This document shows, piece by piece, positions 8,946 to 40,288 of a DNA stretch of 44,768 nt. The translations under genes and the position numbers were made by a program. The notes beneath the pieces are model-generated. The model did no database searches. It was given only the letters and a program-made list of their open reading frames with translations, and was not told where the DNA came from. Origin of the DNA: BD2-11 clade cluster bacterium bin43 (GTDB lineage: Bacteria > Gemmatimonadota > Gemmatimonadetes > Longimicrobiales > Gaopeijiaceae); assembly GCA_002238605.1 (NCBI GenBank), contig MPMR01000031.1, forward strand, positions 1 to 44,768. The letters run 5' to 3'. Position 1 is the stretch's first letter. Every line of letters begins with the position of its first letter.

Positions 8946-9550
8946 GGCGGTAGGGGAACGGATGGTGCTGCGGACCTGAAGCGGACTGGTTCAACGGGTA
9001 GCGGAAAGGGCGCATCGGTGGCAACTTCCCTACCAGAATCCCCAAGGAAGGGAGGCACGAACGATGGCTCGCGGAGATCTTCTGGTCCGCCTGATAAAGA
9101 CCGGCACCGCCGGTGACCAGCCACCGGTAAACGCGACGGCGTCGGAACTGACAGCCGCGGAGTGGCGAGCCGAAACTGCTTCTCGTCATTCCCGGCCTCG
9201 GCCAGCAACTGATGAGGCATCCACGTCCGAATGGGTGGCACCGGAAGTCGGCCCGCCGGAGCCGCACCCCGTGTCGTTGCAGCAATCCAATTGGATCCTC
9301 CGGCCCGTGAGCACGAATGCCGAAGACCGGACCTTCGTCGGTGTCCTCTGGTCGGTGACCGACCCCTTGATGCCCGCGGCTCGGCCGCATTGCATAGCTG
9401 TGGTGTTCGGGATGCTTGTCGGTCCATTGGAACCTCGACGTGACCAAAGGTCACCCGACCTCCCCAGCACCCTACCCGTTCACGGATCATCCGGCTTCCT
9501 GCCCATCCGCTCGCGTCAGATTCCCCCACGCGCTTCGGAGGTTGTCTGCG
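8946..9550. other. Intergenic stretch upstream of the ATPase operon
   Basis: About 600 bp with open frames on both strands, none of which resembles a protein I recognise. It presumably contains the promoter of the ATPase operon and remnants of older insertions. The proteins in the alternative frames are low in hydrophobic cores and rich in Arg/Pro/Ser, as expected of shadow frames. Confidence 0.4.
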
Positions 9551-11753: not shown

Positions 11754-11757
11754 CGTC

Positions 11758-13419
11758 ATGGCTAACGGTACTCGATCCCGCACCGAGGTATTCTCAGAAG
11801 TTGTCTTTCTCGGTAGACTGGTGGACCGCATCGTGGAGGGGAAAATCCGTGTACCTCGGTTCCAGCGTCCTTTTGTATGGACGCAAGGCGATTTGCACGC
11901 TTTACTGGACAGCGTCTGGCGCGGTTTTCCGATCGGGTCGATCCTGGTCTGGGATACAGATAGACGTGTCGAAACTAGGGACCGCATTGGGCCGATCCAG
12001 ATCGGGGCTCCTCCGGATGGGGAGATTAGCTACGTGCTAGACGGTCAGCAGCGGTTATCTACGTTGGTGGGCACGCTACGGTTGACCGACGACGGCAACT
12101 CCACCGTGGATGGCGTGGATTGGAGTGTGTGTTGCGACCTCGAAACTCGGGAGTTTCTCCGAGTATCGTCGCATGAGATTGAGGCTCGGCATTTTCCGGT
12201 ACGAAGCTTGCTCAGCACCGCAGGATTCTTCGCTGCCTGCCGGCGCATTGAGTCGTCGACTCGTAACGTGAAGAAGGTCCGACGTTGGATCAACGAGGCC
12301 GATCGTCTCGCAGCTGCGTTCCGGAACTACCAACTTCCGCTCATCCATATCCGCGAAGCGGATCTTGACAGTGCGGTCACAGTGTTTGCCCGACTCAACC
12401 GCAAGGGTCGCAAGATGACGGCCGATCAGATGGTTTCTGCGCTGACTTACCGTGAAGGTGCGTTTGATCTTTCTGAAAAGCTAAACGAATGCAAGGAAGA
12501 GCTCTATAGACTGGGGTTTGGCAGCATTGATCGGATACTCCTCCTGAGGGCCGTCCTCGCAGCCCTTGGTCGAGATATCTACGCGAAAGACTGGGCGGAC
12601 CTTATGGTTAAGGCGGAGGTTCGGTCAAAGCTCCCGGAGAGTTTTGATGTAGCGGTGACAGGTATTTTGCGTGCACGGCGATTTCTTCATGAACTGGGCG
12701 TCACGTCCGATCGACTCCTGCCGTATGGACTCCAGCTTGTGCTGTTGGGCGAATTTTGTCGATTGTGCCCGGATCCGCCGCCGAACATTAGAAAGCTGTT
12801 GGAACGTTGGTTCTGGGTAACCTCATTCACTGGCTGGTTTGGTGGTAACAGCACCGCGCAAGTGACACGCGCGTTGCGGGAAATGCAAGACCTTGCCCGA
12901 GGCAACGTGACTAGCCTTCACGTCGTGGATTTCGAAGCACCGGCGCTGCCGTTTCCGAGTCGGTTCGATGGGCGTAGCGCCCGTGTGCGTGCATTTATGC
13001 TTTACCTTGCATCACTTCAGCCCCGCTCCCTTGAGGGTGACCAACTCAACCCAGGAGATCTGCTCTCCGCCCAAGGAACGAAGGCTATGGGATATGTATT
13101 GTCCAGCCCGTCCCAAGTGCCAGAGCATTTTAGTAGCCCCGCCAATCGAATGTTTGTGGACAGTGGCCAGATTGGCCAGACATTTACGGTGTTGGCCAGT
13201 TTAGATGATGACATGTTGACGAAGGTTTTGCCGGGTCACGACTTCCCGCCCAGTGCGCGGGAGCTGTTGCGTAACGATGATCGAGCTAATGTAATTCGAG
13301 TTCGTCTGAATGCACTGATCGCGGGCGAGAGGGCGTTCCTAGAGGAGCGGAATGTGGTGGCGCCCACGGAGCAGATGGCGGACATCATCGCTGACAGTGA
13401 TAGTACAGATGATGAGTAA
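11758..13419 (+). CDS. DUF262 (GmrSD/ParB-fold) protein
   Basis: A 553-residue protein with an N-terminal DUF262 domain. The motif VPRFQRPFVWTQGDLHALLDSV (residues 33-54) and the ParB-like DGQQRLST (residues 95-102) are diagnostic. FARLNRKGRKMTADQMVSAL matches the conserved 'LN..G..L...D' block. DUF262 domains bind nucleotides or act as nucleases in the modification-dependent GmrSD enzymes and are common in defence islands. No C-terminal DUF1524 HNH motif is seen; the remaining ~300 residues are not recognised. It starts four bases after the TOPRIM-like gene stops, so all three probably form one operon. GC content looks visibly lower than in the chromosome to the left. Confidence 0.8.
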   Translation: MANGTRSRTEVFSEVVFLGRLVDRIVEGKIRVPRFQRPFVWTQGDLHALLDSVWRGFPIGSILVWDTDRRVETRDRIGPIQIGAPPDGEISYVLDGQQRLSTLVGTLRLTDDGNSTVDGVDWSVCCDLETREFLRVSSHEIEARHFPVRSLLSTAGFFAACRRIESSTRNVKKVRRWINEADRLAAAFRNYQLPLIHIREADLDSAVTVFARLNRKGRKMTADQMVSALTYREGAFDLSEKLNECKEELYRLGFGSIDRILLLRAVLAALGRDIYAKDWADLMVKAEVRSKLPESFDVAVTGILRARRFLHELGVTSDRLLPYGLQLVLLGEFCRLCPDPPPNIRKLLERWFWVTSFTGWFGGNSTAQVTRALREMQDLARGNVTSLHVVDFEAPALPFPSRFDGRSARVRAFMLYLASLQPRSLEGDQLNPGDLLSAQGTKAMGYVLSSPSQVPEHFSSPANRMFVDSGQIGQTFTVLASLDDDMLTKVLPGHDFPPSARELLRNDDRANVIRVRLNALIAGERAFLEERNVVAPTEQMADIIADSDSTDDE

Positions 13420-14361
13420 TGGAACGACTGGGCGAAATGAAGGATGCGCAGGATCTGTTTGCATCGAGGGCGAGTCGTCGTGAAGCCGATCCGCATTCAC
13501 CCTCAACTGCTCGTCGAGGCGTTCGACGTGCGAATCTGAGCTAGCGGACTCGCGTGCCCAGCGGAGGAGATGGGGACGGAAGGGATACTGCCGAATACAT
13601 GGCAACTCTAATCGCGATTGTGGACAGACCACATGACTTGGGAGAACTTCGGATTCCAGTGATGATGCACCGGCCGAACAACAACCGGATGTCGGAACCG
13701 ACTGAGGGCGATTCATTCGGCAGAACCGCGCCATCTGAGGGTCGGAGCGGCCGCGAGGGACGTGGCGGGCGGCGGGCTGCTCTGGTGAATTCGAAGGACT
13801 CGGTAGCGGGGTGGAGCAACTCAATTAGCGCGCGGATGCGCGTAGAGAAATGGCTGTTGGCTGACTTGTGGGAGCCGCGGTGCGAACGGCTGGGGCTCGA
13901 TGCGAGCGCGGAGGACCCTCCGTTCCTTAAGCCCGCGGGTGCTCGAGTCGGCCAAGTCGGGCGGGGTTACCTGGGGCTTGAGGACCGTAACTCTGAAGCC
14001 GTCGGACGCCAGCGACCGGGGAGTATCGGCGTTCCTACGCAGGAACGGAAGTTGGGTGCTCGCCCAAATCAACCGCGTGGCGAAGCGCCATGCGTTGGAG
14101 GCGACCTCTGCGACCGTACACTGGCGAGAGCTTGTATAGCGGCGTGCCGACCCCAGTGCGCGTGGAATTCTTCGAAGAGAAAGCCTGCGGAACCCGCGTC
14201 GCGTGGAGCGACGGCGAGATCGTCGTTCGTCGCGGAGGCGCAGACGCAAACGCCGGCGGTGCGCGGCCTCGAAAACTGGCTGAGCCGTCATCACGCCGAT
14301 CTTACCGTGGACCTTGCAGCCGCCATCCCAGCAAACGGATGCAGGGCGAGAATCCGTGTCT
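13420..14361. other. Gene-poor spacer between DUF262 and patatin genes
   Basis: About 940 bp. A 292-codon plus-strand frame and a 185-codon minus-strand frame cross here, but both translate to arginine/serine/proline-rich text with no motif I recognise and no good ribosome site. I treat it as non-coding or as remnants. The promoter for the patatin-like gene probably lies at its right end. Confidence 0.4.
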
Positions 14362-15837
14362 ATGACCACCTTCGCCAAAGCTGGATTTACGGAACTTCTG
14401 CAGACCGTGGCAAGAAGGGCGGCGCCTGTTAGCGAAGCGCCGAAACGGCCTGAAGCAATTGGAGCGCGATACCTTATGACCGAAGGGCTGCGACAACGGA
14501 CTCGGAAGATTGCGATCGCTCTCTCAGGAGGAGGTCACCGAGCCTCGTTGTTCGGACTCGGCGTGCTAATCTATCTCACCGACGCGAGTCGGAACCGAGA
14601 TGTCGTTTCTATTTCTTCGGTGTCAGGTGGATCACTTACCAATGCTTACTTGGCCCAAAGGGGAGACTACTCAACCCTCACACCGGAAGAGCTGGAGAGT
14701 CGCATCGCCCGGCCCTTAGCTCGACAAGTGGCGCACCTCGGTACACTCTGGGCGTCCTGGATTACACGGGTCTACGTCGTCACGCTATTTGCTGGAATTG
14801 CGGCGTTGTTCGCGATCTGCTGGCTTCCGGTTGATTTTTTCTCGCGCACGATCTTTTTCGTTCTCGGGCTTACCGCTTGGGGCCTCCTCGCCGGCCTTCG
14901 GGGCAAGATGTGCGCCCTAGCTTTCCAGCGGACCCTCTATTCGGCGGGCAGACGCCCCAAGCTGGTTCGCGAAATCGAACGTAAGAATGTGCAGCACATC
15001 ATTTGTGCGACAGACGTGCGCGCCGGACACCATGTGTATTTCTCGGGTGATTTCGTGTGCTCCTATCGGCTCGGCTGGGGGCGTCCCGCTGATTTCCGCT
15101 TGGCCGATGCCGTACAGGCATCGGCAGCATTCCCCGGTGCGTTCCCACCACGTTGGCTACCCACCAAGCAGCACAGCTTTGCGGACGGTGCTCAGAAGAC
15201 TCCCCGGTACATGGTGTTGTCGGACGGCGGAATCTACGACAACATGGCCGAACAGTGGCCCATCGGAGTCCGTTCCCGCCAGAGACGGTGGCCGACGCAG
15301 TCCGATGCGCTCAAGGCACCCAATTCGCTAGTAGTCGTCGATGCGTCCGGACCGATGCGATGGGCGTCCGTCCGCCGATTGCGCGTGCCGGCGATTGGGG
15401 AGATCTTCGCGTTGCTCCGCGTCATCGGTGTGCTTTACGATAAGACGACAACCACACGCCGGAGCACCTTGGTGGACCGGTTTGATCGCGCGGCACGAAA
15501 GGGGCGAGGCCTCGAAGGGGCTCTTGTCATGATCAATCGTAGTCCGTATTGGACTGCGGACTACTTCAGCAAGCGAACCGAGACTTGGCCTGATCGGGCC
15601 AAGCGCGCGACCCGCGTACTCCAGGTGCTCGGCGACGAGAACCGTGAGAGGTGGGAGAAGCTCGCTGACGAGAATCTCCGCGTGAAGACCACACTCTCGC
15701 GCCTTGGAGGCCAGGTGGCCGCCGGTCTTCTCTACCACGGATACGTATCAGCAATGGCCAACTTGCACGTTATCCTTGGCTTCCCTCTGCTCCCGGTTCC
15801 GCCTGTCGACCGCTTCACGCAGATGGTCGATAGGTAA
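14362..15837 (+). CDS. Patatin-like phospholipase with membrane anchor
   Basis: A 491-residue protein. The oxyanion motif is SGGGHRAS (residues 55-62; canonical GGGxRG, here ending RA). The nucleophile elbow reads SVSGGS with Ser88. The catalytic Asp is in LSDGGIYDN. Two adjacent hydrophobic stretches between the nucleophile and Asp regions (VVTLFAGIAALFAICWL and TIFFVLGLTAWGLLAGL) form a membrane hairpin inside the catalytic domain. Patatins hydrolyse membrane phospholipids and serve as cell-killing effectors in CBASS (CapV) and other defence systems. No cyclase is next to it. It lies between the ATPase operon and the convergent ubiquitin-like operon and may be independent. The start is uncertain: ATG 14362 is preferred; ATG 14314 and 14476 are alternatives. 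Confidence 0.8.
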   Translation: MTTFAKAGFTELLQTVARRAAPVSEAPKRPEAIGARYLMTEGLRQRTRKIAIALSGGGHRASLFGLGVLIYLTDASRNRDVVSISSVSGGSLTNAYLAQRGDYSTLTPEELESRIARPLARQVAHLGTLWASWITRVYVVTLFAGIAALFAICWLPVDFFSRTIFFVLGLTAWGLLAGLRGKMCALAFQRTLYSAGRRPKLVREIERKNVQHIICATDVRAGHHVYFSGDFVCSYRLGWGRPADFRLADAVQASAAFPGAFPPRWLPTKQHSFADGAQKTPRYMVLSDGGIYDNMAEQWPIGVRSRQRRWPTQSDALKAPNSLVVVDASGPMRWASVRRLRVPAIGEIFALLRVIGVLYDKTTTTRRSTLVDRFDRAARKGRGLEGALVMINRSPYWTADYFSKRTETWPDRAKRATRVLQVLGDENRERWEKLADENLRVKTTLSRLGGQVAAGLLYHGYVSAMANLHVILGFPLLPVPPVDRFTQMVDR

Positions 15838-16178
15838 GTAGGCCAACGAGCGCGGCGGTGCTCTCGGATGTGCGCGCATCGGCGAATCTAGGATTGCCCC
15901 GCCCCCAAGTGTCTTCAAGGGCTGGGCAAACACAAGCCAACCGAGGTTCGCCCCCGCACGTCGGCCCGGCGTTGAGGCGCCAAGACATCCTCGTGTGTTG
16001 CCCTTTCGCTCCATGCGGGTTGGTGCAGATCGTCCGAGTCTGGCTGGATGTTCACGTAGCCCTTCTTCAGCGATCAACCTCATGAACCCGGGGACGCAAT
16101 CTGCACCAATGTTGGCTGCCGTGGCCGGATCCCGCACGGGTGATCGGCCTTGGAGAGGATCCCAAGTGCTCAGTGCAG
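15838..16178. other. Convergent intergenic region
   Basis: About 340 bp between the convergent patatin and E2-E1-JAB genes. I see no gene and no clear intrinsic terminator with a U tract. Both operons end here. Confidence 0.4.
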
Positions 16179-18494
16179 CTAGCCAGCGCTTAGGCCGCGC
16201 GCGACCCGGCCATCTCTTGGGGTCAGCGCCAGCGGCCTGGTCCCCTGCTCGGCGAAGATCACCTCAATTCCTATGTCGGTTGCAATCACCATCAAGGCGG
16301 GCGCTGAGTCCATCTCCATAACGGCGGCTAGCCAGTCGATCTGGCGAATATCGCGCGGACTGGGCTGACCGCTTGCGCCCGGAGGATGGGAATGCCATTC
16401 ACCAACGTAGCGCACCTGTCCCGATGTTCTTCTGCGTATCCGGTCGATGTATTCTCCTACCCCCCGCACGCCTCGCTCGAAGCCTCCAATACTCTCGATA
16501 CTATCATCAGGTGCCGCTGCCGCATGCACTAAGCAGATCGACCTCGCGGGAACATCAACTACTCCAAACAGCATGCCCCCAGTCTCAACAGGGAGTTTCT
16601 CTTTGCGCATCGCGAGTATCTGCCGTACAAAACCGGCATCCGTCGTGATCTTCCAATCATTCTTCCCAAGGTAGCGAGTTACTTGATCGGGTGGAGCTGT
16701 ATCGAGAGTCACCTCGCCGTTCGAATCAAGCGTCCACACAGCGAGAACCGCTTCTGGTTGGTCTACCGCGTCACCCAGTTTCATGGCCACCAGCCCCGCC
16801 AACACTGACACGTTTGACTGCGGGAAGCGATTGCTGATCGCCCGACAACCACCTGTGTAGGCGAATGTCTCAACCGACCGGTCCAGATGACTTTTGAGGC
16901 TCCCCGTTTCCAACACAAGACGATAATACTGTGCCTCCAAGTCGCGTAATGTGAGGGCCCGATCGGCGGGCTCCGCCAGCAACACGGCGGCTGCGCCAGA
17001 CGGATTGAAGAACGTACTGATTCGGCGAGCTGGCCCTTCATGATCCGAGATTCTGCGGGCGGCGCCAATAGAAGCTGTCGCGTCAACAATCAGATCCGCT
17101 GCGGCCATCGCCGACGAGATCGACCTGCCGGGCTCACCACCTGCGAATAGATCATTCGGGAGAGCGCGCGCGATTGCCTCTCGCTCCGCGACCACAGCGT
17201 TGAGGTGGTCAGCAAGGACATGTGCCTTGTGGTAGCCAATTCGATCGTTATGCCCGATATGGCGGGCGAGATTGTGGGGCAGCATTCGGTCGGGGTCGAT
17301 CACCGTCCAAGTGAATCGGCCTTCTCGGGCCAAGCAGTCCGCAAGTGCGGAACCCAACGCTCCCGCGCCGATCAAGACAGCGTGCCGCGAATCCGGTTCG
17401 TCCCGGCCAGCGAGGCGAGCAGCTAGGTCATGCTCAAACTCAAGATGCACCTCCGCACACTCGATGGCCACCGGCTTCAAGGCCGAAGCGTCCGCAACCT
17501 TGGCACGGATGTGCTTGACGTATCCGACTGTTCCATCCTGCAGTTGCCTATCGTCTTTCAGTGCAATACCGAGCACGACCCCGATTTCCCCGACTGTCCG
17601 CTCGCTGACAAAGGCCCGCAAATCTGCACCGTCCTGTAGAACGTCGGGTGATGCGCGCACCGGCATTTGAACCATTACTGCAAGAAGTGAGTTGAGTAGC
17701 CACCGCGCGCCCGCATCGGTAAGCAAGTCCGAAAGGAGGCGGTTCAGGTCATCAACAAGGACAATTCCGTTCTCTCCTAGTATGGTCGACAGTTCATACA
17801 AGTTGACCGGCATGTGTCTGAGTGGCCGAACTCCTTGCGCCGGCAGTCTGTATGTCATGACACAGATTGGCAATCGTGGTCTGTCGGTGTCGTCGCAATC
17901 CTGCAACCGCTTGACTCGCAGGATGGGGCTGTGCTCATGCTCCTGTTCGGCGATCAGGACTTCCGTAGTCTCTTCATCCCATACAGACCGCTCGGTTACG
18001 AAGCTGAACTCACTGAGCAAGAAAACCGGATCGAGGGGCTGGCGGGTGTCGTGTAGCTTGCCGACCGACGCACGCTCGAACCAAGAAAGGACACGAGTGA
18101 CTAGTTCAGCCGGCGTCCATCCCAAACTGGCTTCCGCCCACGGACGGTCATCAATACAGATGGCCGCGGGATGTCCCCGGGGAACAAGCATTTGATGCTC
18201 AGTGTCTGGAAAGTCGTCACGTAGCATCACCATCAACGGCATGCTCCCCCTCCCAAAGAGCACGCCAACCCGTTCGACGCGGCGTATTGGATGGACTGGT
18301 TCCTGTGGGGAGCCCGTGCAGATATCAAGAATCACGAGTTCTCCGCCATCATTCCGGCGAAGCTCGACTACATCTGCTACTCCATCGCCGTAGCGTTCCA
18401 CAAACTTCACCAACGCCCCGGCATGCGGATTGCCGAGGCCATTCCAATCGGTGACCAACTCTGCATAGTTGGCCACCCATCTCTCCGTCCTCAA
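16179..18494 (-). CDS. E2-E1-JAB triple fusion, ubiquitin-like conjugation protein
   Basis: A 771-residue single chain with three activities of protein modification. An E2-like domain comes first (about residues 1-160). It ends with GHPAAICIDDRPW, where Cys113 is the candidate thiolester cysteine, followed by a Trp-rich helix. A helical linker of ~200 residues follows. The E1 (ThiF-fold) domain has the nucleotide loop GAGALGS (376-382), VIDPDRMLPHNLARHI, and LIVDATAS (Asp471). The C-terminal JAB/MPN+ domain has a full JAMM set: Glu637 (VETGG), His701 and His703 (EWHSHP), Ser712 and Asp715. Known relatives are Cap2 (E2-E1) plus separate Cap3 (JAB) in type II CBASS. Here all three are on one chain. 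Its start overlaps the stop of the MBL gene upstream by 4 bp (ATGA). It is the last gene of the operon. Confidence 0.85.
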   Translation of the reverse strand: MRTERWVANYAELVTDWNGLGNPHAGALVKFVERYGDGVADVVELRRNDGGELVILDICTGSPQEPVHPIRRVERVGVLFGRGSMPLMVMLRDDFPDTEHQMLVPRGHPAAICIDDRPWAEASLGWTPAELVTRVLSWFERASVGKLHDTRQPLDPVFLLSEFSFVTERSVWDEETTEVLIAEQEHEHSPILRVKRLQDCDDTDRPRLPICVMTYRLPAQGVRPLRHMPVNLYELSTILGENGIVLVDDLNRLLSDLLTDAGARWLLNSLLAVMVQMPVRASPDVLQDGADLRAFVSERTVGEIGVVLGIALKDDRQLQDGTVGYVKHIRAKVADASALKPVAIECAEVHLEFEHDLAARLAGRDEPDSRHAVLIGAGALGSALADCLAREGRFTWTVIDPDRMLPHNLARHIGHNDRIGYHKAHVLADHLNAVVAEREAIARALPNDLFAGGEPGRSISSAMAAADLIVDATASIGAARRISDHEGPARRISTFFNPSGAAAVLLAEPADRALTLRDLEAQYYRLVLETGSLKSHLDRSVETFAYTGGCRAISNRFPQSNVSVLAGLVAMKLGDAVDQPEAVLAVWTLDSNGEVTLDTAPPDQVTRYLGKNDWKITTDAGFVRQILAMRKEKLPVETGGMLFGVVDVPARSICLVHAAAAPDDSIESIGGFERGVRGVGEYIDRIRRRTSGQVRYVGEWHSHPPGASGQPSPRDIRQIDWLAAVMEMDSAPALMVIATDIGIEVIFAEQGTRPLALTPRDGRVARGLSAG

Positions 18495-19624
18495 CAGCCG
18501 GCCCGCGGCGTCTCCGAGGCTACGGACGTGCTGACCATCGAAGCCCCAATAATCGCCGCGACACCTTGCGCCGTGATCTTGAAGCCGAAGGGCCGAGGCT
18601 TGGCCTCTGAGGGCTTCTCCATTGTCACGACGAAGTCGCCGTCAAGGGCCTCCGCTACGGATCGGTAGTAGTTGGCCGCCTGGCGGTGTGGCGGCTGCTT
18701 ATCCTTATCGTCTTCAGTCCCCTTCTCGGGTATCTTCCAGCTCGTCGACACCATTACCCCTCGCTCGCGACCCTGGGTTTCGAAGAGCCACTCCACGTCC
18801 GGCGTAGCCTTGGTCTGGTCTTCGCCACGCTCGGGGCCCAAGGCCTTGTACGAGCAGTGATGGCAGATCTTCAGCAGATCCCAGAGCAGCCGATCCTCAT
18901 TGCCGTGGCTTTTTGTCAGTGAGACAATCGCTGAGATGGTATCGTGGTTGACATCCGACCCGAGTAACAGATAGGAGTCACGCCCTCCCTCGCGGAAGGT
19001 AACCTGCATGACAATTGACTCTTCGTTCCGGTCGATGACCGTGTTCTCGTCAGATCGCCACGCGAATGGACAATGAACAAAGAACTCCGCCTGGGCCGAC
19101 TCTTCCTTCTTATAACCAGGAACCAATGAGCCGGCGGTGACGATCAAGTGCTTGTGTTTCTCGTAGTCCAACTCGTTATCCTCCATCCACTTCTTCATCC
19201 GTTTTGGCCGGGAAAAGACACGCACACCTTTCCCTTTCTTGAAGCGGTGCCGTGCCTCGGCCCGAATGAGCCTCGCATCTCCCTTGAGATTCTCTTCCAA
19301 CACGGCTGCTGCTGGGACCCACAGTTCATCAATCTTGATCCGATCGTCACTCTGGTACTTCTTCGCGTGTTCAAGCCAGAAGAACTCGCCGAATCCCTTG
19401 CAATGATCGCTGTCGATGTGGGTGATGCACACTGCGTCGTAGTGGGTGCGGCCGGCCTTACGGAGGTCGAGCTTTAGTTCCTTCGGAAGATCGCACCGAA
19501 GATCTCCGCTGTCCTGTGAATTGCGTGTGTTAGCGTAGTCCACGAGTATTTTGCGGCCATCTGCCAGGTCGATACGCTGCGTATCGGCGTTTCCGAGCGG
19601 AAAGAAGTGGATTTTTGCTGTCAT
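18491..19624 (-). CDS. Metallo-beta-lactamase-fold hydrolase with intact metal motif
   Basis: A 377-residue MBL-fold protein like the C-terminal domain of ComEC/Rec2. The metal-binding motif is complete: CITHIDSDHCKGF (HxDxDH), with later DSYLLLGSDVN and LKICHHCSYKAL (the HHGS-like block). The family includes nucleases and nucleotide hydrolases, so a phosphodiesterase role is plausible but not shown. Start: ATG 19624, with GAGGAG 7 bp upstream; an in-frame extension upstream has no family character. The stop overlaps the E2-E1-JAB start. MBL-fold proteins recur beside prokaryotic E1/E2/JAB genes. The middle part is rich in Lys/Arg/Glu (FKKGKGVRVFSRPKRMKKW). Confidence 0.8.
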   Translation of the reverse strand: MTAKIHFFPLGNADTQRIDLADGRKILVDYANTRNSQDSGDLRCDLPKELKLDLRKAGRTHYDAVCITHIDSDHCKGFGEFFWLEHAKKYQSDDRIKIDELWVPAAAVLEENLKGDARLIRAEARHRFKKGKGVRVFSRPKRMKKWMEDNELDYEKHKHLIVTAGSLVPGYKKEESAQAEFFVHCPFAWRSDENTVIDRNEESIVMQVTFREGGRDSYLLLGSDVNHDTISAIVSLTKSHGNEDRLLWDLLKICHHCSYKALGPERGEDQTKATPDVEWLFETQGRERGVMVSTSWKIPEKGTEDDKDKQPPHRQAANYYRSVAEALDGDFVVTMEKPSEAKPRPFGFKITAQGVAAIIGASMVSTSVASETPRAGC

Positions 19625-19802
19625 TTCGTGCTCCTCGGGGTTCCCGATGAAAAGTGAGATTGATTGCGTGGAAGACATGTCTCGCCGAGCATCGCTTCCT
19701 TTCGGTTGCTCAGCAAACAGCGATCCGTAGCGGTACAGTGGTGCGGGTCTTGTCGGATGCAGGACATGTCGCCGCTGCCGATGGCTGGGGCGTTCACGAT
19801 GC
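19625..19802. promoter_or_regulatory. Internal spacer with repeated GACATGTC
   Basis: The only sizeable gap (178 bp) in the otherwise overlapping operon. It carries the 8-bp palindrome GACATGTC twice, at 19674-19681 and 19763-19770. This may be an internal promoter/operator, splitting the locus into an upstream six-gene and a downstream two-gene transcription unit. That is inference only. Confidence 0.3.
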
Positions 19803-20627
19803 TCATGCAACGGGTCTCGTCAGCAAGTCACTGCCGCGGCGGTTGGTGAGCAATGAGATTCCGTTGCGCGCGTTGGTCTGGAACACGCGGTCGGCCACGC
19901 GCAGATACAGGGCCACCGCCTTCCTATCCGGGTGGCCGTACTGATTGTCGACGCCAGCGCTGATCACCACGGTATGTGGCCTCACTTCCAGGATCATCCC
20001 CGGGTGGGCCGCGTTCTTCGATCCGTGATGGGGTGCTGCCAGCACATCGGCGGCCAGCGCATCACCGAACAGCGCCACAATGCGGTCCCAACGGGGGTTC
20101 TCCGTGTCTCCGGTAACCAGATACGAGAATCCTCCAGGCCTAGTGCCCTCGATCTTCAGCACGATGCTGCAGTTGTTCGAGTTGTCCATGTCCTCGATGT
20201 GCGGGGAGAACAACTCGAGTTGAAACTCCTCCGTCAGATTGTCGAGATAACGCGACTCCAACCGATCAAGCCGCACGGAGATCCGCTGGAGCGGTTTTGA
20301 GGTGCCCTTCCGACGCCGCTCGTGCTTCCGAATCACATTGAAGACCTGCTGTGCGTTCTCGGTATCCTTGTAGTACTTCGGATACATCACCCAGCCCGGG
20401 ACGTAGTTCTCAAGCAGCCAGTCCAGGCCGACCGGGTCCGCGTGATCGTCATCGAGCCCGGTCAACACGATGCCCGCCAGGTCCCGCCGCTGCAGGAAGT
20501 GGCTCACCTTCAACTCAATATCCTCTGCCCGTTCGGCCAGCCACCGCGTATCCACCGCGATCGCCTGCGTGCCATGGCGGACGACGGTGAGATTCCCTTG
20601 TCCCACGTAGAGCGTCAGCACTTCCAC
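19803..20627 (-). CDS. Second MBL-fold protein with degenerate metal motif
   Basis: A 274-residue ComEC-type MBL-fold protein from GTG 20627 (VEVLTLYVGQGNLTVVRHG). An overlapping ATG at 20669 would add 14 residues, but AAGGG sits properly before the GTG. The fold signature is clear: AIAVDT, then IVLTGLDDDHADPVG, FSYLVTGDTENP and LAAPHHGSKNA. The HxDxDH motif has Gly in place of the first His, while the DDH and HHGS parts remain. So this copy may bind one metal or act as a partner of the intact MBL protein next door. It follows the JAB gene with about 10 bp spacing or overlap and belongs to the same operon. Confidence 0.8.
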   Translation of the reverse strand: MEVLTLYVGQGNLTVVRHGTQAIAVDTRWLAERAEDIELKVSHFLQRRDLAGIVLTGLDDDHADPVGLDWLLENYVPGWVMYPKYYKDTENAQQVFNVIRKHERRRKGTSKPLQRISVRLDRLESRYLDNLTEEFQLELFSPHIEDMDNSNNCSIVLKIEGTRPGGFSYLVTGDTENPRWDRIVALFGDALAADVLAAPHHGSKNAAHPGMILEVRPHTVVISAGVDNQYGHPDRKAVALYLRVADRVFQTNARNGISLLTNRRGSDLLTRPVA

Positions 20628-20637
20628 GTTGCTACCC

Positions 20638-21561
20638 TTACCGCGCCATCGCGGATTCGTAGATTTCACGATTCATCTGCAACTCCAACGCGCGTACCGC
20701 GTGGGCCGCGCTCGCAAATGAGGTCCCGCACAACTCCGCCACTTGTTCGGTGGTCGGCGCGACGATCACGTAGTACACCAGGCTGCCTTCGTCTTCGACT
20801 TCCGCGACCTTGAGGTCGATTGCGGATCCGTCGATCAACGGCAACTGGCCCTTCCAGAAAAAGGTTCCCGTGGAGGTAGACAGCCGAGGTTCCAACGACG
20901 GGAACAACAGCCCGAGCACAACCTCATCGCGCACGCGGACTGCGACTGAGACCGTTCCCAGCGTTTCATCACCTTGCGGGCCGTCGTCTTCTCGATCGTC
21001 GTTCGAAGCACGATGGTCTTGAGGCCAGATCCCCGGGTCGTCGGTGACTTTCACGTCAGCCGGTGTGATTTCGTGTACAGCGTCGTCTCCGCGAAACAGC
21101 ACGTAGTGCCGGACCGCGTACCGGTCCAGCCCTCGCTGTCCGTCGTTCCGGTGCGTCACGAGCAATGCGTAGAAGAAGTCCAGGTTGTGAAGTTCGTGGT
21201 TCACGATCCTACGGTAGGTCGCCCTGTCACCACCGCTCAGCGTCGGGTAACCGTTCACATGATGGGTGTGCCAATTGCCGAGATGTTCGATTGACGGGTC
21301 CTCAGCCTCGATCCGTCTGAACACCTCTGTCTGATAGTCTCCATCCTGAAAGAAGCTCGTGCGCGAACGACGTGCGTTTGGACCCGGCTCGATCACGCCC
21401 CTGGCCTGGATTACGACGGAGTCCCCTTCCTCGGCGAAGTGGCCTATCACCCGCCCCCCTGTTTCCTCGCTGTCGTAACGATCGCATTCCTCGAACACGC
21501 TCTCCAGCACCGCACCGGCGATTTCCACCCGGACCGCCGGGTGCTCACTCCTCTTCTTCAT
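20638..21561 (-). CDS. JAB/MPN+ isopeptidase-like protein
   Basis: A 307-residue protein. Residues 10-130 form a JAB (MPN+) domain with all JAMM ligands: Glu33 (SEETGG), His98 and His100 (GNWHTHH), Ser109 and Asp112 (TLSGGD). JAB enzymes are zinc isopeptidases that remove or process ubiquitin-like modifiers. A second domain (about 190-300, with VSVAVRVRDEVVLGLLFPSL and SLVYYVIVAPTTEQV) is not recognised and might bind the modifier or target. A strong ribosome site (GGAGGAGG) precedes the ATG at 21561. The gene overlaps the end of the E1 gene by 17 bp. Confidence 0.85.
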   Translation of the reverse strand: MKKRSEHPAVRVEIAGAVLESVFEECDRYDSEETGGRVIGHFAEEGDSVVIQARGVIEPGPNARRSRTSFFQDGDYQTEVFRRIEAEDPSIEHLGNWHTHHVNGYPTLSGGDRATYRRIVNHELHNLDFFYALLVTHRNDGQRGLDRYAVRHYVLFRGDDAVHEITPADVKVTDDPGIWPQDHRASNDDREDDGPQGDETLGTVSVAVRVRDEVVLGLLFPSLEPRLSTSTGTFFWKGQLPLIDGSAIDLKVAEVEDEGSLVYYVIVAPTTEQVAELCGTSFASAAHAVRALELQMNREIYESAMAR

Positions 21562-22396
21562 GGCCTCCTCCGCAAACCAAGCATCCGTCCTGCGGGGACA
21601 GAATCATCCGCTGCATCTGGAAGTTCCTCGAAAACGGATGCACAGCTCGGTTGCCCCACACCAGGTAGTTGTCATCGATCGGGGTCATGAACTGCGGTCG
21701 AGATACCGCCGCATCGCCCAGCGCATCCAGGGTAAACCGGGTGTGGAGAGCAGCTATGAACCCGATGTCGACAGACAAGCCCGGCGAGTCTTTGATCTCC
21801 TCGATCTCAAGGTCGTAGACTCTCTGCCGCTCCTCCTCCGACACGAGATCGATCTCCCGCACGCCGTCTCGGAATTGCGTCCGCTCAAGCACTCCCTCGA
21901 GACATGCCAGGCATCCATACTCTCCCGGTCGAAAGGAGTACACTTCGCCTCCGATCCCGCGCGTGAACACGCGACCCACGGTGAATGGCGTCTCCGTCTC
22001 GACGCAGACCTCATTCAGCCGGTACCGGCTTGGTTCGTTGTCCGTGCCCACCACCACGACACTTGCACGCTCGACCTCATCTCTCAGTCCTCGCCACAGG
22101 AGGATGTCCTCGTCGAACATTCTGACTTCCACCTGCGGGTTGCGGTCCCTTATCACGTCGGCGACGGCCGCCGTCTTCCGCCATCCCAGGTACCGGAGTC
22201 CACAGACATGTCGGATGACGTTCTCGACTTCCAGTTCACCCTTGTCCACAAGGATGAAGTTCCGCACGCCAGACATGACGAGATGCTGCGCTACCTGCCC
22301 ACCTCCTGATCCGCACCCCGCGATCAGCACCCAGAGGTCCTCGAACGCCCTCACGTCGAACAGGCGTTCGATCCTCGCGAATAATCGATCCTTCAC
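21545..22396 (-). CDS. E1-like (ThiF/MoeB-fold) activating enzyme
   Basis: A 283-residue ThiF-family adenylyltransferase. It has the nucleotide loop IAGCGSGGGQVAQHL (around residues 26-40), LVDKGELEVENVIRH (the conserved Asp and Asn/Arg), the segment WRKTAAV with the conserved Lys, and VVGTDNEPSRYRLNE. A structural zinc site is likely formed by GCLACLE and GCLVCGG near the end. E1 enzymes adenylate the C-terminus of ubiquitin-like proteins. The start is GTG 22396, whose GTGA overlaps the stop of the preceding E2 gene; in-frame codons upstream would extend into that gene and lack family character. It is a stand-alone E1, separate from the E1 domain of the fusion at the end of the operon. Confidence 0.85.
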   Translation of the reverse strand: MKDRLFARIERLFDVRAFEDLWVLIAGCGSGGGQVAQHLVMSGVRNFILVDKGELEVENVIRHVCGLRYLGWRKTAAVADVIRDRNPQVEVRMFDEDILLWRGLRDEVERASVVVVGTDNEPSRYRLNEVCVETETPFTVGRVFTRGIGGEVYSFRPGEYGCLACLEGVLERTQFRDGVREIDLVSEEERQRVYDLEIEEIKDSPGLSVDIGFIAALHTRFTLDALGDAAVSRPQFMTPIDDNYLVWGNRAVHPFSRNFQMQRMILSPQDGCLVCGGGHEEEE

Positions 22397-22938
22397 GTCT
22401 CGCGTCCCTCTTTCGGCCACGCCCCCGCCCGCCGCCAAACCGAATAGTGCTGGATCCACCGTCGGAATAGCGCTACCGCATGCATCACGTCGTGCTGCCC
22501 CGGATTCCATGCCGCCAGGGCGCCGTAGATGCACAGCGTCCCATCGGGCCACCTGTGCGGGCATCCAGCCTCGATGGGTTCCGCCGCGACCACCGGCGCC
22601 TTGTTGGGATAGCCGTGCGGCAGTGTAACGGTCACGTCGACGACCGTCTCACCACTGAATTCTCGAAAGACGAGTTGAATCTCCCGGTCGGCGCTGATGG
22701 CGATACGGTAGTCCTCGTTCGCGTCGACCATCCTGTCCAGCTCGGCCGTTACGCGGGACGGTGGGATGTCCGGAAGGAAACACCAGATCGGTACAAGACA
22801 GGCCTTCTGTTGTCCGTTCCGCTCGATTACGAAGGCGGCACCGTCCTGAGACACCTCGTCAAGAACCTCACCTGGCCTGCGTCGCAAGGCCATCATCGAC
22901 AAGGCCTTGAATTCGATTTGCGTCGTGTTAGTGCTCAA
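22393..22938 (-). CDS. E2-like protein with Phd/YefM-like N-terminus
   Basis: A 181-residue protein. The C-terminal part (about 60-175) is a prokaryotic E2-like fold: VTVTLPHGYPNKAPVV, then CPHRWPDGTLCIYGALAAWNPGQHD, with Cys136 as the candidate catalytic cysteine, and the helix FRRWIQHYSVWRR. Residues 15-52 (MMALRRRPGEVLDEVS..FVIERNGQQKACLVPI) read like the DNA-binding fold of Phd/YefM antitoxins. That is unexpected on an E2. The start is TTG 22938, preceded by GGAG; it overlaps the upstream gene by 11 bp. An internal ATG (residue 15) would still keep the Phd-like segment. The role is probably transfer of an activated modifier from the neighbouring E1, perhaps with autoregulation. Confidence 0.75.
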   Translation of the reverse strand: MSTNTTQIEFKALSMMALRRRPGEVLDEVSQDGAAFVIERNGQQKACLVPIWCFLPDIPPSRVTAELDRMVDANEDYRIAISADREIQLVFREFSGETVVDVTVTLPHGYPNKAPVVAAEPIEAGCPHRWPDGTLCIYGALAAWNPGQHDVMHAVALFRRWIQHYSVWRRAGAWPKEGRET

Positions 22939-23998: not shown

Positions 23999-24877
23999 TC
24001 ACTCCTCGCCGTAGAACCGGGCGACCGCGCCGTCCCCGGCCAGTTCGGCGCGGACGTAGTAGGACGGCATCTGGGGCGAGGCCCAGCGTCCGGCGACCTG
24101 GACCGCGGCGACGCCCGCGCCTGAGGCCACCAGGTCCCGCGCCATCCCGATGCGCGGCGAGTGCCCCGAGAAGCGGCCGACCAGCCCGGCAGCCTTGGCT
24201 GCCTTGCCGATCCGCTTCGACACGGCCTTGCCGGTACGCAGCCCGAAGACGCGGGCGCCGGGGGAAGCGTCCGGGCCGTGGATCGCCCGAAGCTCCGCAG
24301 CGGCGTCCCTGCCCACGTACAGGGTGGCCCCGTTGCCGTCCTGGTCACTCTTCGAGCGGCGCACCGTGACCCTGGCGGACCCGTCGCTGCGGAACTACAC
24401 GTCGGCCCAGGTGAGCGCGGCGGCCTCGCCACGCCGGAGCATGGCGTCCCGCATGACCGAGACGAGGGCCACGTCCACGCGCCCGCCGCGGCGGGCCGTG
24501 CGCGCCCCCTCGGTGCGGCCGCCCGGTCCGGTCCGGCGCAGATGGGCGGTCGCGCGGATCGCCTCCAGCGCCTCGGCCGTGAGCGCGGCGGCCTGCCTCG
24601 GGGTGCGGCCCTCTTGCGCCGCCCAGCGGGTGAGCCCGCGCATCACGCGCCGGACGCCTTCGTTGTCGTCCGGATTCGCGTGTCCGGCCTCGCTGTGATG
24701 GTGGCGGATCTTCCGATCCGGTCGGAGTGGCTTCCTCTCGCCACACGTCAACGCGGTTGCCGGTCGCTGCCACCCGCAGAACGCAGTTCCGCCGATAGGT
24801 GGTGGATGACGCTGCGTTCGAGCGATTCTCGCCGATCGTCTTGGCGGACGGCTTGCCGGGTTTTCCGCCACATCCAC
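23999..24877 (-). pseudogene. Tyrosine recombinase interrupted by an amber codon
   Basis: One reading frame codes for a phage-type integrase: EGVRRVMRGLTRWAAQEG, then VALVSVMRDAMLRRGEAAALTWADV (containing the first catalytic Arg). A TAG at 24395-24397 follows. The same frame resumes with FRSDGSARVTVRRSKSDQDG (catalytic Lys region), GHSPRIGMARDL (H-x-x-R) and GRWASPQMPSYYVRAE (Trp and Tyr). The stop most likely replaces a Glu/Gln codon, so a single point change killed the gene. The N-terminal SAM-like domain upstream of about 24720 also looks missing or unrelated. It resembles the intact recombinase at 25542-26525 in its catalytic motifs. Confidence 0.8.
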
Positions 24878-24969: not shown

Positions 24970-25367
24970 TCTTCCAGCCTTGTCGTCTCGGTTCCCTCCA
25001 AGTTGTCGCCCGCGGAGCTGGAACTAAATGGCAGCATGAGCCCAAGGGCGTCCCGGGTTATCACCCATGCTCCCCTTCGGCTGCTGCGCGGACCTTTCCG
25101 CAACACCTTGCCCCGGCGCGATGCGAGCGACGGCAAGTGTCGACGGGCATGCTCCTTGCACTAACGCGGTGCGGCCCGGCTGGCCCACGGCGGCTTCAGC
25201 CTGTCGGTCGGACGCCGGTCGCGAAGGAACGCGGCGGCAGTTTCCGGGTCTCAATAACAGTGAGCGACTTGACGGGCACAGTGATTCGACATTGGCCCCA
25301 AAGACGCTTTCAGACGGGAGAGGAGCCCGAAATGGGCGATGTCCTCAGCGATTCTTCGGTCGGTTTT
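24970..25367. other. Gene-free stretch left of the dif-like site
   Basis: About 400 bp with no gene I can support. Its right end runs into the first dif-like site at 25368. Confidence 0.4.
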
Positions 25368-25395
25368 GCGCGCGATAACGGGATTTATCGCGCGC
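25368..25395 (+). other. dif-like recombination site A
   Basis: A perfect 11-6-11 structure: left arm GCGCGCGATAA, 6-bp spacer CGGGAT, right arm TTATCGCGCGC, the exact reverse complement of the left arm. This is the geometry of XerCD dif/pdif sites (arms ending ATAA/TTAT around a 6-bp crossover region). It sits 146 bp beyond the stop codon of the recombinase gene. The matching site B lies in opposite orientation on the other side of that gene. Confidence 0.7.
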
Positions 25396-25541
25396 TACGG
25401 CTATTTGATCGCATCTCTGTGAAGCCCGTCAAAAGATATGTGACCGCAGTCTCGCGCGCCAGTCGTAGGGAGAGGACCGGGAGCAGCGGTCATGCCGACC
25501 GTCGGCCGCAAGTCCTTAAGACCTCTACGAAGAGGCAATCT

Positions 25542-26525
25542 TCAGCGCTGTTGCCTGGCGGCCAATTGTGCCGCGCCGCTACGTCGCGCCAGCAGTCGCT
25601 CGCCGTAGCGTTGCACCATCCGCGCACTCTTCCAGCGCCCGGCCTGCAGGATCGCCGGTAACTCGATTCCGCAGGCGATCATGTCTTGAACCGGCCCCAC
25701 GCGCGTGCTGTGCCCCGCCAAGGCGTCCACGGTGTCGGCGGGAAGCCCGGCACGCAGGGCCATCGACTTGTAGATGCGGGGCACCTGACTCGGAGGGAGT
25801 TGCTCCCCCACCGAGCCGTCCTTACGCACCGAACGGAACAACCGCCCCCCGGCGGTCCCGCTGCGGCCGAGCCATATCTTGACGATCCTCACCGTGTCGC
25901 GCGCGAGAAAGAGCATGGCGCCTGCCCCCTCGGGATCCGTCTTGCTCGTTCGCACGAGCAGCGTCGCGGAACCATCGGCTTCCTCCACGAGGTCGGACAC
26001 GTCCAGCGACACCAGCTCGGATCGGCGCAAGAGCGTGTCGTAGGCCACGGCTAGCAGCGCGCGGTTCCGCGCGTCGATCAGCCGCTTTCCCGCCGCCTTG
26101 ATCAGTCGGTTCCGGAGCGGCCAAGTGAGCCCGGTCACCTGCGTTTGTCTGCGCCCCCGGTTCCGGTACATCCGCTGGAGGGCCAGCTTCACGGCCGTGC
26201 TGTCCGCCGGGTTCGGCAGGCGTAGCGTCTTGTGGAGCGTAGCGATGCTGGACACGTAGCGGCGCACGGTGGCCGGAGCCCTGCTGCTGCCCATGTCCTC
26301 GATGAAGGCGATCAAAGTGGTGGCGCTCGCGGGCACGGCCACCATGCCGTCCTGCTCGCACCAGACCAGGAATACCCGCAGGTCGGCCCTCAGCGCCCGC
26401 TCCGTGTTCCGGCTGAAGGCGCTGCTAACCGTCTCGAAGAAGCGAGCTAACTGCTCCGCCACCTCCGCGTCTGATTCTGCACCGGTCAAGGCATCTATGT
26501 GTGGTTTCGTGTCTGCATCTGGCAT
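25542..26525 (-). CDS. Tyrosine recombinase flanked by inverted dif-like sites
   Basis: A 327-residue tyrosine recombinase. The N-terminal SAM-like core-binding domain covers about residues 25-110 (SRNTERALRADLRVFLVWCEQDG; PATVRRYVSSIATLHKTL). Catalytic residues are visible: Arg in LLRRSELVSL, Lys in RTSKTDPEG, AGHSTRVGPVQDM (H-x-x-R), GRWKSARMVQRY (Trp and the nucleophile Tyr). The start is ATG 26525, with GGAGG 7 bp upstream; a longer TTG-started frame would run through dif-like site B and is unlikely. Site B lies 40 bp upstream, in the gap to the divergent surface-protein gene; site A lies downstream. The enzyme is the natural candidate to act on both sites, which would invert its own gene. 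Confidence 0.88.
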   Translation of the reverse strand: MPDADTKPHIDALTGAESDAEVAEQLARFFETVSSAFSRNTERALRADLRVFLVWCEQDGMVAVPASATTLIAFIEDMGSSRAPATVRRYVSSIATLHKTLRLPNPADSTAVKLALQRMYRNRGRRQTQVTGLTWPLRNRLIKAAGKRLIDARNRALLAVAYDTLLRRSELVSLDVSDLVEEADGSATLLVRTSKTDPEGAGAMLFLARDTVRIVKIWLGRSGTAGGRLFRSVRKDGSVGEQLPPSQVPRIYKSMALRAGLPADTVDALAGHSTRVGPVQDMIACGIELPAILQAGRWKSARMVQRYGERLLARRSGAAQLAARQQR

Positions 26526-26564
26526 CGAGTGGCCTCCGGTTCGATCGCAAGGACCGCGCGTTTT

Positions 26565-26592
26565 GCGTGCGATAAATCCCGTTATCGCGCAC
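26565..26592 (-). other. dif-like recombination site B, inverted
   Basis: Arms GCGTGCGATAA and TTATCGCGCAC around the spacer ATCCCG, which is the reverse complement of the spacer of site A. Including flanks, 33 bp starting GTTTTG match site A in inverse orientation with two differences. The outer GTTTTG is kept on the outside of both sites. The site occupies most of the 101-bp gap between the recombinase and the divergent surface-protein gene, so it overlaps their promoters. Confidence 0.7.
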
Positions 26593-26626
26593 AAAACTCC
26601 CTGCGAAACAGGAGGCGAACTCGAGG

Positions 26627-29218
26627 ATGAACATGATTGGTCAAAGGACTACGTCGGACGGATGGGCGTGCCTCGCACGTCCTTGGCAGGCGACACTCGC
26701 CCTGGCCCTCGCACTGCTGGCGGGCACCGGGACTGCTGCGGCACAGGACACCATGCCCCCGGGGCTGAAGTCCGCGAGGCTCCTCGGGACGAAGCTGATG
26801 CTCGCATTCGATAAGCCGGTGGTGATAAACGAGACCTCGCGGCTGATGAAAGGGTTCACGGTTGACGGGATCTCGGACAGCGCCAGCGTGCATCCGACTG
26901 CGATGACCATGGACAACCGGACGGCCACGCTCGAACTCGGCGCGGGCGCTGATCCGGGGCAGACTGTCACGGTGAGCTTCGACCCGGACAAGGTCCCCAA
27001 CACAGAGCCCTCGTTGCTGTATCCGAACGGTCAGTACATCCCCCTGCGCTACACCGACGGCACCTTAGTGCCGGAGTTCTCCGGCGCGCCGGTGACCATC
27101 GGTCCGGACCCCCCCACCGCCTCGGTTTCGTTCGTGAGCGGGGCGACAGTCGAACTGAGTTGGACGCTTCCTGCCCAGCACCCGGACGTGAGGGTGACCG
27201 CCGTGGAACTTTCTTGGACGTCGCGGACCAAGCCCGACCTCCCGGGGATCCCGGACTTTCGCCCTCATCCAAACAGCCGTTTCCCTTTTGCCGCGACCGG
27301 GCCTAAGACGTGGGCTGTGCGCCACGGGGGCGTCACCCATTACTACCGCGTCCGGCTCGTCACCAACTTCGGCGACGTGGATTCCGAGGTCGTGTCGTGG
27401 ACGAGTGATCAGGATGGCCTGAGACCCGCCACCGGCTTGACGGCGTCGAACGCGACGCAAACGACGGTCGACCTGGCGTGGACGCTGCCCGACCAGCCCG
27501 CGTGGGCAAAGCAGGTGGCGAATTGGATCTGGAGCGAAGTGCAACAGCAGCAGGCGGATGGGACCTGGAGCACGATGGCGAAGCTTGCCGGCGACGCGGT
27601 GGCGCACACCGTTACCGGGCTGAGCACCGGGACCGCCTACAGCTTCCGTGTCAAGCTCATGCACACCACTCATTCCGCACCCTCGGAGCCCGTGTCCGTG
27701 ACCACCTTGGACGACAGGGCACCGCTGACGGCGGCGTTCCACGATGTGCCGGCCACGCACGGCGGCAGGCGCGCCGACTTTAGCTTCGAGCTTCGTTTCA
27801 GCGAGAACTTCCCGGGGAAGCTGCCCTACAAGAAGCTCAGGGACGAGGCGCTTAGTGCGACGAACGGCCGAGTGACGCACGCGCGCCGCGCGGCGCAGAA
27901 CCAGAACCAGCGCTGGATCATCACGGTGCGGCCGCTCTCGTCCGAGGACGTGACCGTGACGCTGGCAGCGACGACCGATTGCTCCGCCGCAGCCGCGATC
28001 TGCACGCCGGACGGTCGACCGCTGTCGAACTCCCCCTCGGCGACGATCCAAGGGGCGTCGGCGCCGCAGGCGACCGGCGTGAAGGTGTCATCGGACGCCG
28101 GCGCGGACAGCACCTATGTCTTGGGCGATACGATTCGCGTGACGCTGACTTTCAGCCAGCCGGTGGAGGTGACGGGCACGCCGCAGCTGAAGATCGACAT
28201 GGACCCGGCGCACTGGGGCGAGAAGTGGGCCAGCTACGAGAGTGGCGGAGGGGACGACATGACGTTCGCCCACGTGGTGGTGGAGCCTAACTTCTCGACC
28301 CAAGGGATCGCGGTGCTCGCGAACACGCTACGGCTCAACGGTGGCACGATCAGGTCGAAGGCGACAGATGCGGCCGCAGACCTGGCGCATGCCGGGCTGG
28401 CCCACGATCCGGCCCACAAGGTGGACTGGCGGCAGTCGGCGAGCGCGGGTGACGTGGCCAGCGGCGACGTGGTGGAAGACCCGTTGGCTGTCGCGGACGA
28501 GGCGCTGGCCGTAGCGGACGGGTTGAGCCCGGACGAGGCCGCCGCGGCGCTGTTCGGTGAGGGGACGCTCAGCGAGGCCCGGCAGGCCGCGCTCGACCGT
28601 CTGGGCAACCGGAACGGCGGCTACGATCTCGGGGACCTGCTCTCCTGGATCGAGCGCTGCCGAAGAGGTGAAGCCCGGTGCGGAGGGACACCTACCGATT
28701 CCAGTCCCACTTCGGGCGCCGCCCTCGTCGGGGCTGCGGCAGCCGGACGCCGGGGGAGCTCCAGGCGCCGCGGACGCTCGCGAGTCCGCGGCACGGGTCG
28801 CCAGGCGGGCAAGGCCGGATGGGCGCTCACCGTGCTGCTTGCCACCGCAATGACCTGGTCATGCACCGGTGATGCGATAGCGCCAACCGCTCCGGCCGCC
28901 ACTGTACCGGATCCGGGTTTCCTGACGGTCGAGTGGAGTGGGCCGGCAGCGAGAGCCGATATCGGCGGCCTGCTGGAGTTGGAGGGTCCGACAATCGACG
29001 CCGTGCGGGCTTCCGGTCTCGAGCTGTACGAATCCGGAACAGGGGAGCGCCATCAGATCGTCGTGGCGGGCGTTCTCCGGCCGGGTCCCCTCATGCAGTT
29101 CCACGTGCCGGACCGCAACCAGTTCGCTATGTACCGGGTCCGCGTCCTACAGGTTACGGGTGAGGGCTACGGGCTCCGGGACCCAACGGAGTACCGGGCC
29201 GTGGTCGTCACGAACTGA
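26627..29218 (+). CDS. Large secreted surface protein with Fn3-like domains
   Basis: An 863-residue protein. The signal peptide ends near AAAQDT. Residues of about 40-140 match SwmB/Ig-like surface domains (LKSARLLGTKLMLAFDKPV). Two fibronectin-type III-like domains follow at about 160-265 and 270-365 (LTASNATQTTVDLAWTLP; TGLSTGTAYSFRVKL). Two more beta domains follow (385-480; 485-605, with YVLGDTIRVTLTFSQPVEVTGTPQLKID). Near 665-685, YDLGDLLSWIERCRRGEARC is dockerin-like. An Arg-rich stretch and a second hydrophobic segment ending in a lipobox-like TWSC (about 745-765) precede a last beta domain, as if two secreted proteins had fused. It is probably an adhesin or envelope protein. AGGAGG precedes the start. 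Confidence 0.75.
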   Translation: MNMIGQRTTSDGWACLARPWQATLALALALLAGTGTAAAQDTMPPGLKSARLLGTKLMLAFDKPVVINETSRLMKGFTVDGISDSASVHPTAMTMDNRTATLELGAGADPGQTVTVSFDPDKVPNTEPSLLYPNGQYIPLRYTDGTLVPEFSGAPVTIGPDPPTASVSFVSGATVELSWTLPAQHPDVRVTAVELSWTSRTKPDLPGIPDFRPHPNSRFPFAATGPKTWAVRHGGVTHYYRVRLVTNFGDVDSEVVSWTSDQDGLRPATGLTASNATQTTVDLAWTLPDQPAWAKQVANWIWSEVQQQQADGTWSTMAKLAGDAVAHTVTGLSTGTAYSFRVKLMHTTHSAPSEPVSVTTLDDRAPLTAAFHDVPATHGGRRADFSFELRFSENFPGKLPYKKLRDEALSATNGRVTHARRAAQNQNQRWIITVRPLSSEDVTVTLAATTDCSAAAAICTPDGRPLSNSPSATIQGASAPQATGVKVSSDAGADSTYVLGDTIRVTLTFSQPVEVTGTPQLKIDMDPAHWGEKWASYESGGGDDMTFAHVVVEPNFSTQGIAVLANTLRLNGGTIRSKATDAAADLAHAGLAHDPAHKVDWRQSASAGDVASGDVVEDPLAVADEALAVADGLSPDEAAAALFGEGTLSEARQAALDRLGNRNGGYDLGDLLSWIERCRRGEARCGGTPTDSSPTSGAALVGAAAAGRRGSSRRRGRSRVRGTGRQAGKAGWALTVLLATAMTWSCTGDAIAPTAPAATVPDPGFLTVEWSGPAARADIGGLLELEGPTIDAVRASGLELYESGTGERHQIVVAGVLRPGPLMQFHVPDRNQFAMYRVRVLQVTGEGYGLRDPTEYRAVVVTN

Positions 29219-40251: not shown

Positions 40252-40281
40252 TTGCATCCGCCATTAGCTGGTATGTATAAT
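40252..40281 (+). promoter_or_regulatory. Consensus promoter for a probably leaderless integrase mRNA
   Basis: TTGCAT (40252-40257) and a perfect TATAAT (40276-40281) are 18 bp apart. The expected transcription start at about 40288 is directly before the ATG at 40289, so the message would have almost no leader. The surrounding ~140 bp are noticeably AT-richer. Confidence 0.55.
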
Positions 40282-40288
40282 GGTAGGT

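Follow-up and report, generated by a model that had tools for sequence, protein, structure and literature searches.

Why should a gene for a tyrosine recombinase lie between two nearly identical inverted sites, next to the start of a gene for a secreted surface protein? The question is raised by the following features of the window, the whole 44,768-nt stretch of DNA from BD2-11 clade cluster bacterium bin43 that was analysed:

25363-25395, lox_dn: GCGCGCGATAA-CGGGAT-TTATCGCGCGC, a lox-type site, inverted, beyond the 3' end of the recombinase gene
25396-26564: the 1.2-kb segment between the sites, predicted to invert
25542-26525, minus strand: gene for a 327-aa Cre-type tyrosine recombinase (CDS 25545-26525), within the predicted invertible segment (Pfam Phage_integrase, 1.1e-14)
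26565-26597, lox_up: GCGTGCGATAA-ATCCCG-TTATCGCGCAC, a lox-type site between the recombinase start and the surface gene, to which a breakpoint maps in relatives
26627-29218, plus strand: partner gene, divergent from the recombinase, for an 863-aa secreted surface protein with an SWM repeat and fn3

The answer that we favour, with moderate confidence, is that gene and sites together form a Cre/lox-type inversion module, which probably works as a promoter switch and is also exchanged as a cassette. At the level of sequence, it is supported by Cre homology, by paired inverted sites with concerted spacers, and by lox breakpoints in relatives.

As the sequence-only reading had it, two inverted sites bracket the recombinase gene: they are identical at 31 of 33 positions, and their spacers, CGGGAT in lox_dn and ATCCCG in lox_up, are exact inverses. 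That reading also gave them 11-bp arms around a 6-bp spacer. This holds for lox_dn, a perfect 11-6-11 palindrome and the sole 11/11 match at such spacing among 44,741 window positions, and less exactly for lox_up, whose arms match at 9 of 11; the sequence of the window arms, however, extends to 13 bp around an 8-bp spacer, the geometry of loxP. The loxP core ATA-N8-TAT is retained in the sites, which in a close relative (L026) form perfect 13-8-13 palindromes. The genome did not yield the additional sites for which the earlier reading had proposed a search: across all 4.47 Mb, the sole partial match to each site is the other (E 1.8e-6), GCGATAA-N6-TTATCGC does not occur elsewhere, and there is no further exact core that might bracket other cargo in the manner of pdif modules.

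The best PDB relatives of the recombinase are phage P1 Cre structures (phmmer, E about 3e-28, residues 17-313), with a far weaker match to XerD (E 3e-4). Identity to P1 Cre is 30% (BLASTP); homology covers both domains, a symmetric lox-type site adjoins the gene, and the catalytic R-E-K-H-R-W-Y set is present as R167, E170, K195, H272, R275, W298, and Y307 (Cre correspondence from alignments), all invariant in 11 relatives. By comparison with its nearest relative, L057 (dN 0.013, dS 0.14, dN/dS about 0.09), the recombinase is under purifying selection. It is not the only sequence of its kind in the genome. A decayed second Cre-type recombinase lies on the same strand:

24026-24475, minus strand: a 38% identical piece with an internal TAG

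Further decayed or partial Cre-type recombinases are found on contig C33 of the same genome, at 1895-2059 and 9414-10126.

The earlier reading had called the sites dif-like, and one might suppose that host XerCD uses them, the recombinase being unrelated to the sites it lies between. An ATAA-N6-TTAT core is indeed common to dif. The asymmetric XerC/XerD arms of XerCD dif and pdif sites are lacking, however, those of lox_dn being perfectly symmetric; arm sequences vary across relatives along with the adjacent Cre-type gene; and comparison with a chromosomal dif, also proposed earlier, leads to a separate dif-like candidate on another contig. Host XerCD is thus a scarcely credible user of these sites, and dif/pdif membership is ruled out by arm symmetry, homology, and the genome search. 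By the same comparisons, the enzyme is a Cre homologue and the sites are lox-type, not dif-type. The dif-like candidate, GCGCATAATATGTATTATGTATAGT, is at C3:84065-84089 (L106), with three mismatches to the searched consensus.

Conservation of the layout was assessed in a family of 18 loci, which came from a survey of about 2,000 genomes together with a scan of one collection. Two inverted lox-like sites flank the recombinase in 15 of these (Gemmatimonadota, Acidobacteriota, and Gammaproteobacteria), with pair scores of 28-34 vs. shuffled-flank maxima of 16-23; because independent relatives repeat the pair with different site sequences, it is far beyond chance. Distances from the gene range from tens of bp to about 200 bp for the upstream site and are 65-305 bp for the downstream one. 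The remaining loci have one site (L082), none at the recombinase (L083), or are a special case discussed below (L085). In a tree, the paired family forms one clade (support 100/99), L082 and L083 included; further searches, covering Acidobacteriota and the order of G417, added no new members. The lox-cre-lox layout is a conserved anatomy.

The spacers suggest what the second site is for. Eight spacer sequences occur across lineages, matched within each locus in the inverted sense, the sole mismatch being one base in L087. Mean within-locus spacer identity is 0.98 inverted vs. 0.35 direct, a result reached by 4 of 200,000 permutations. Since spacer matching is needed for strand exchange, the two sites have evolved jointly, as recombination partners, and inverted sites with matching spacers are what a Hin-like invertible promoter switch calls for.

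This concerted change also bears on the possibility of multimer resolution, in which a P1-like Cre/lox system would act on dimers of a circular conjugative element and the second site would be a duplicated remnant or an autoregulatory operator. The surroundings would suit such a role: they are those of a conjugative element, with TrbC, VirB4-like, VirB9/CagX, TrbI, TrbL, and VirB8 genes and a separate arm-binding integrase at 40280-41482. So would the homologous plasmid recombinases, six more distant examples of which have a single lox-like site, upstream, as in P1; an inverted pair was sought in 18 viral and 15 other more distant homologues, these six included, and found in none. A passive remnant, however, would not be expected to follow its partner through eight spacer variants, a matching asymmetric spacer would be unnecessary in an operator, and the Gammaproteobacterial cassettes have TonB receptor or transporter genes as neighbours and are not on an evident plasmid. 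We therefore consider multimer resolution improbable. As to phages, a first scan of viral contigs found no near relatives, and an alignment-based viral scan only 27-33% relatives without paired sites. Elsewhere in the window, an island of lower GC content on its left side (9416-22564) carries genes of defence-like type: an AAA_15 ATPase, a GmrSD N-terminal domain, a patatin, and a set of E2, ThiF, and JAB genes similar to those of anti-phage ubiquitin-like systems; RNA families and tRNAs were sought across the window, and none were found.

If the pair does serve inversion, what would inversion change? The suggestion made from the sequence alone, that it would change which sequence faces the surface gene, has gained from the comparative evidence, which favours a switch. 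The upstream site sits between the start codons of the recombinase and the divergent surface gene, the latter 45 bp from the lox_up spacer. The corresponding distance is 28-46 bp in most Gemmatimonadota loci, which leaves no promoter room outside the segment; the partner is usually a large secreted protein in which fn3, SWM, Calx-beta, or cadherin-like domains occur. Two further features lie at the other end of the segment:

25403-25432, minus strand: P_out, a sigma-70-like promoter candidate, TTGACG-N18-TCAAAT, reading outward through lox_dn (p=0.003 vs. random locus windows)
25320-25362: a stretch just outside lox_dn, strongly conserved in subgroup A (alignment of the window, L057, L058, and L027), perhaps an accessory site or leader

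An outward sigma-70-like promoter between the recombinase stop and lox_dn is predicted, promoter calls being consensus matches, in all eight loci of subgroups A (the window, L057, L058, and L027) and C (L080, L081, L084, and L086). Scores are at p 0.003-0.013 vs. random windows of the same locus, the loci within a subgroup not being independent. In L057, L058, and L027 the candidate is at the same place as in the window (in L058 as TTGACG-17-TACAAT); in subgroup C it reads TTGAC[CG]-17-TACAGT, and its -10 box and the lox spacer overlap. No comparable promoter was found at the other end of the segment in these eight loci, and virtual inversion raises the partner-side promoter score in each of them. 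A promoter scan of the window at a stricter threshold reported none. Because no promoter swap upon virtual inversion was seen in subgroup B or L087, the promoter model has good in silico support in the subgroup to which the window belongs but does not extend to the family as a whole.

In the mechanism proposed, the recombinase would bind the two inverted lox-type sites and invert the 1.2-kb segment, which holds its own gene and, at its 3' end, the outward promoter. In the assembled orientation the promoter would face away from the surface gene, whose short leader is broken by lox_up and appears to have no promoter of its own, so that the surface gene is predicted to be OFF. Inversion would bring the promoter to within about 60 bp of the surface-gene start, on its upstream side, and so turn the gene ON. 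Over evolution, the same sites would also allow exchange of the cassette or the partner gene between elements. Active inversion in BD2-11 clade cluster bacterium bin43, promoter activity, and the ON/OFF consequence are what we infer from the arrangement.

Conservation outside the segment is confined to the lox_dn side, where 40-110 bp are conserved in a subgroup-specific manner (the window; L080/L081/L084; L051-L056); the subgroup B stretch carries repeated TCGTGA/TTGTGA motifs. Speculatively, this might be accessory sequence biasing the direction of inversion. An inward ORF through lox_dn (25332-25661) was considered as a shuffled coding end and rejected, as alignments show that it ends at lox in L058. 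Downstream of lox_dn in L051, L054, L055, and L056, and in the same direction as the recombinase, are large GAF/PAS histidine kinase genes, where complete fused to response-regulator and winged-helix domains; the kinase is a possible regulator of the module.

How often inversion might occur can be approached from the orientation of loci in relatives. Among 47 flank comparisons, 45 are same-side and two are swapped, both of the latter involving L085. Frequent random flipping is not supported by this distribution: free flipping at equal rates would not be expected to yield 45 vs. 2. The assembled orientation, predicted to be OFF, may be strongly preferred; alternatively, inversion may be rare, or the sites may serve chiefly for exchange between elements. 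The exception, L085 (G616:C650, 1640-3587), has the outer element of lox_dn in L080/L081/L084 reversed outside lox_up; this element matches the downstream flanks of L081 (E 3e-22) and L084 (9e-16), with no comparable match to upstream flanks. After the truncated recombinase, and reading the same way, comes a surface-gene-like remnant (weak, E 3e-5), so that both flanks are swapped in the manner that inversion predicts. As the recombinase is without its C-terminal catalytic part, L085 is likely a locked, inverted copy, although its junction could alternatively have come from recombination between two copies. A second candidate for an inverted locus, L083, was set aside: its MalT-side match to L086 is unusable, the locus having no site pair.

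Further traces of recombination are found at lox_up. The window and L057 are about 95% identical within the segment, dropping to about 60-88% in the flanks right at lox_up. A three-way comparison places the window with L058 by its flank and with L057 by its cassette. The change is best located between -14 and -11 relative to the lox_up spacer (2dlnL 253), and positions of about -15 to +4 come within 2 log units of this optimum. In L027, a 1.67-kb gene for a MauG-type di-haem peroxidase (L027:3264-4962) is enclosed by two lox copies in direct orientation that share one spacer. At the outer copy the original flank, which is that seen in L028, comes to an end, and the gene starts 46 bp from lox, like the surface genes, one of which it appears to replace. 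These comparative breakpoints are evidence of natural recombination at lox, with the 327-aa protein as the putative enzyme of strand exchange at lox_up and lox_dn.

In Gammaproteobacteria the cassette is found at unrelated loci. In G600, a 2.37-kb stretch that contains a gene for a LuxR-type regulator (weak domain hits) and lox-cre-lox stands between two genes, the downstream one coding for a TonB-dependent receptor; in G601 and G602, counterparts of the flanking genes are 60 bp apart, without the insert. This contrast indicates that the module and its partner move or are exchanged. The self-mobile module proposed earlier as an alternative finds partial support, as cassette exchange (the lox_up breakpoint, the L027 insertion, and the unrelated Gammaproteobacterial loci); this support does not extend to pdif-type mobility by XerCD.

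Could exchange then be the whole function? The site pair would in that case serve mainly for intermolecular swapping of lox-cre-lox, or of the gene adjacent to lox_up, between conjugative elements, with inversion a by-product. This is the main rival, or companion, of the inversion reading: the mosaic breakpoint, the MauG gene between direct lox copies, the loci with and without the 2.37-kb insert, and the single orientation seen nearly everywhere are all in its favour. Against it, the sites are inverted in every paired locus, whereas a second site would be superfluous for one-site exchange; conservation of the outward promoter and the nearness of the partner start codon are left unexplained; and the right edge of the cassette is past lox_dn, not at it. 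Exchange as the main function is on balance unlikely, though less so than multimer resolution. Returning to the favoured inversion module, a bolder form of it may be proposed, though it is less likely than not: a natural Cre/lox inversion switch that is a portable lox-cre-promoter-lox cassette, moving between conjugative elements and across phyla, capturing a new partner at lox_up (surface protein, MauG peroxidase, or LuxR regulator), and bringing its own ON/OFF control.

The Cre-type systems that we found described have one site and are tied to plasmid or phage maintenance; a literature search for sponge or natural Cre inversion switches found none. A Cre between its own inverted lox sites, conserved across three phyla, would give natural Cre/lox a gene-switching role and tie it to the surface proteins of uncultured bacteria. 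It would also be a source of several new pairs of recombinase and site, each differing from the others in spacer, that could be tested as tools for genome engineering.

Among known systems, phage P1 Cre/loxP and its relatives (Dre/rox, Vika, Nigri/nox, and Panto/pox) belong to the same recombinase family as the window enzyme. In the Nigri/Panto survey, each recombinase was matched with one target site (PMC4957104). The 13-8-13 geometry, the ATA/TAT beside the spacer, and a site just upstream of the gene are shared with this group; the window differs in its two inverted flanking sites and candidate outward promoter, many loci have a divergent surface-gene partner, and the paired family comes from MAGs of Gemmatimonadota, Acidobacteriota, and Gammaproteobacteria. 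The pdif modules move as units, their cargo lying between inverted 28-bp sites. They depend on host XerCD, with asymmetric dif arms and no recombinase in the cargo, whereas the window has symmetric lox-type sites with the recombinase as cargo.

When the outward promoter of the Salmonella Hin/hix segment faces a surface-structure gene, it drives that gene. Hin is encoded inside its own invertible segment (PMC5903667), and the likeness to the window lies in this placement together with, in the window, a predicted outward promoter for a surface gene. Hin, however, is a serine recombinase with a Fis-bound enhancer; the window has a Cre-type tyrosine recombinase and lox-type sites. In the haloarchaeal virus phiCh1, the recombinase gene ORF35 is itself the invertible segment and varies the neighbouring tail-fibre genes (PMC4284463). 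In phiCh1 inversion exchanges the 3' ends of two tail-fibre genes, and in the window it would exchange a promoter; the two also differ in host and in the sequences of their sites, the likeness being one of layout. By analogy, then, the window module would combine Hin-like logic with phiCh1-like self-inversion, built from a Cre/lox-type system.
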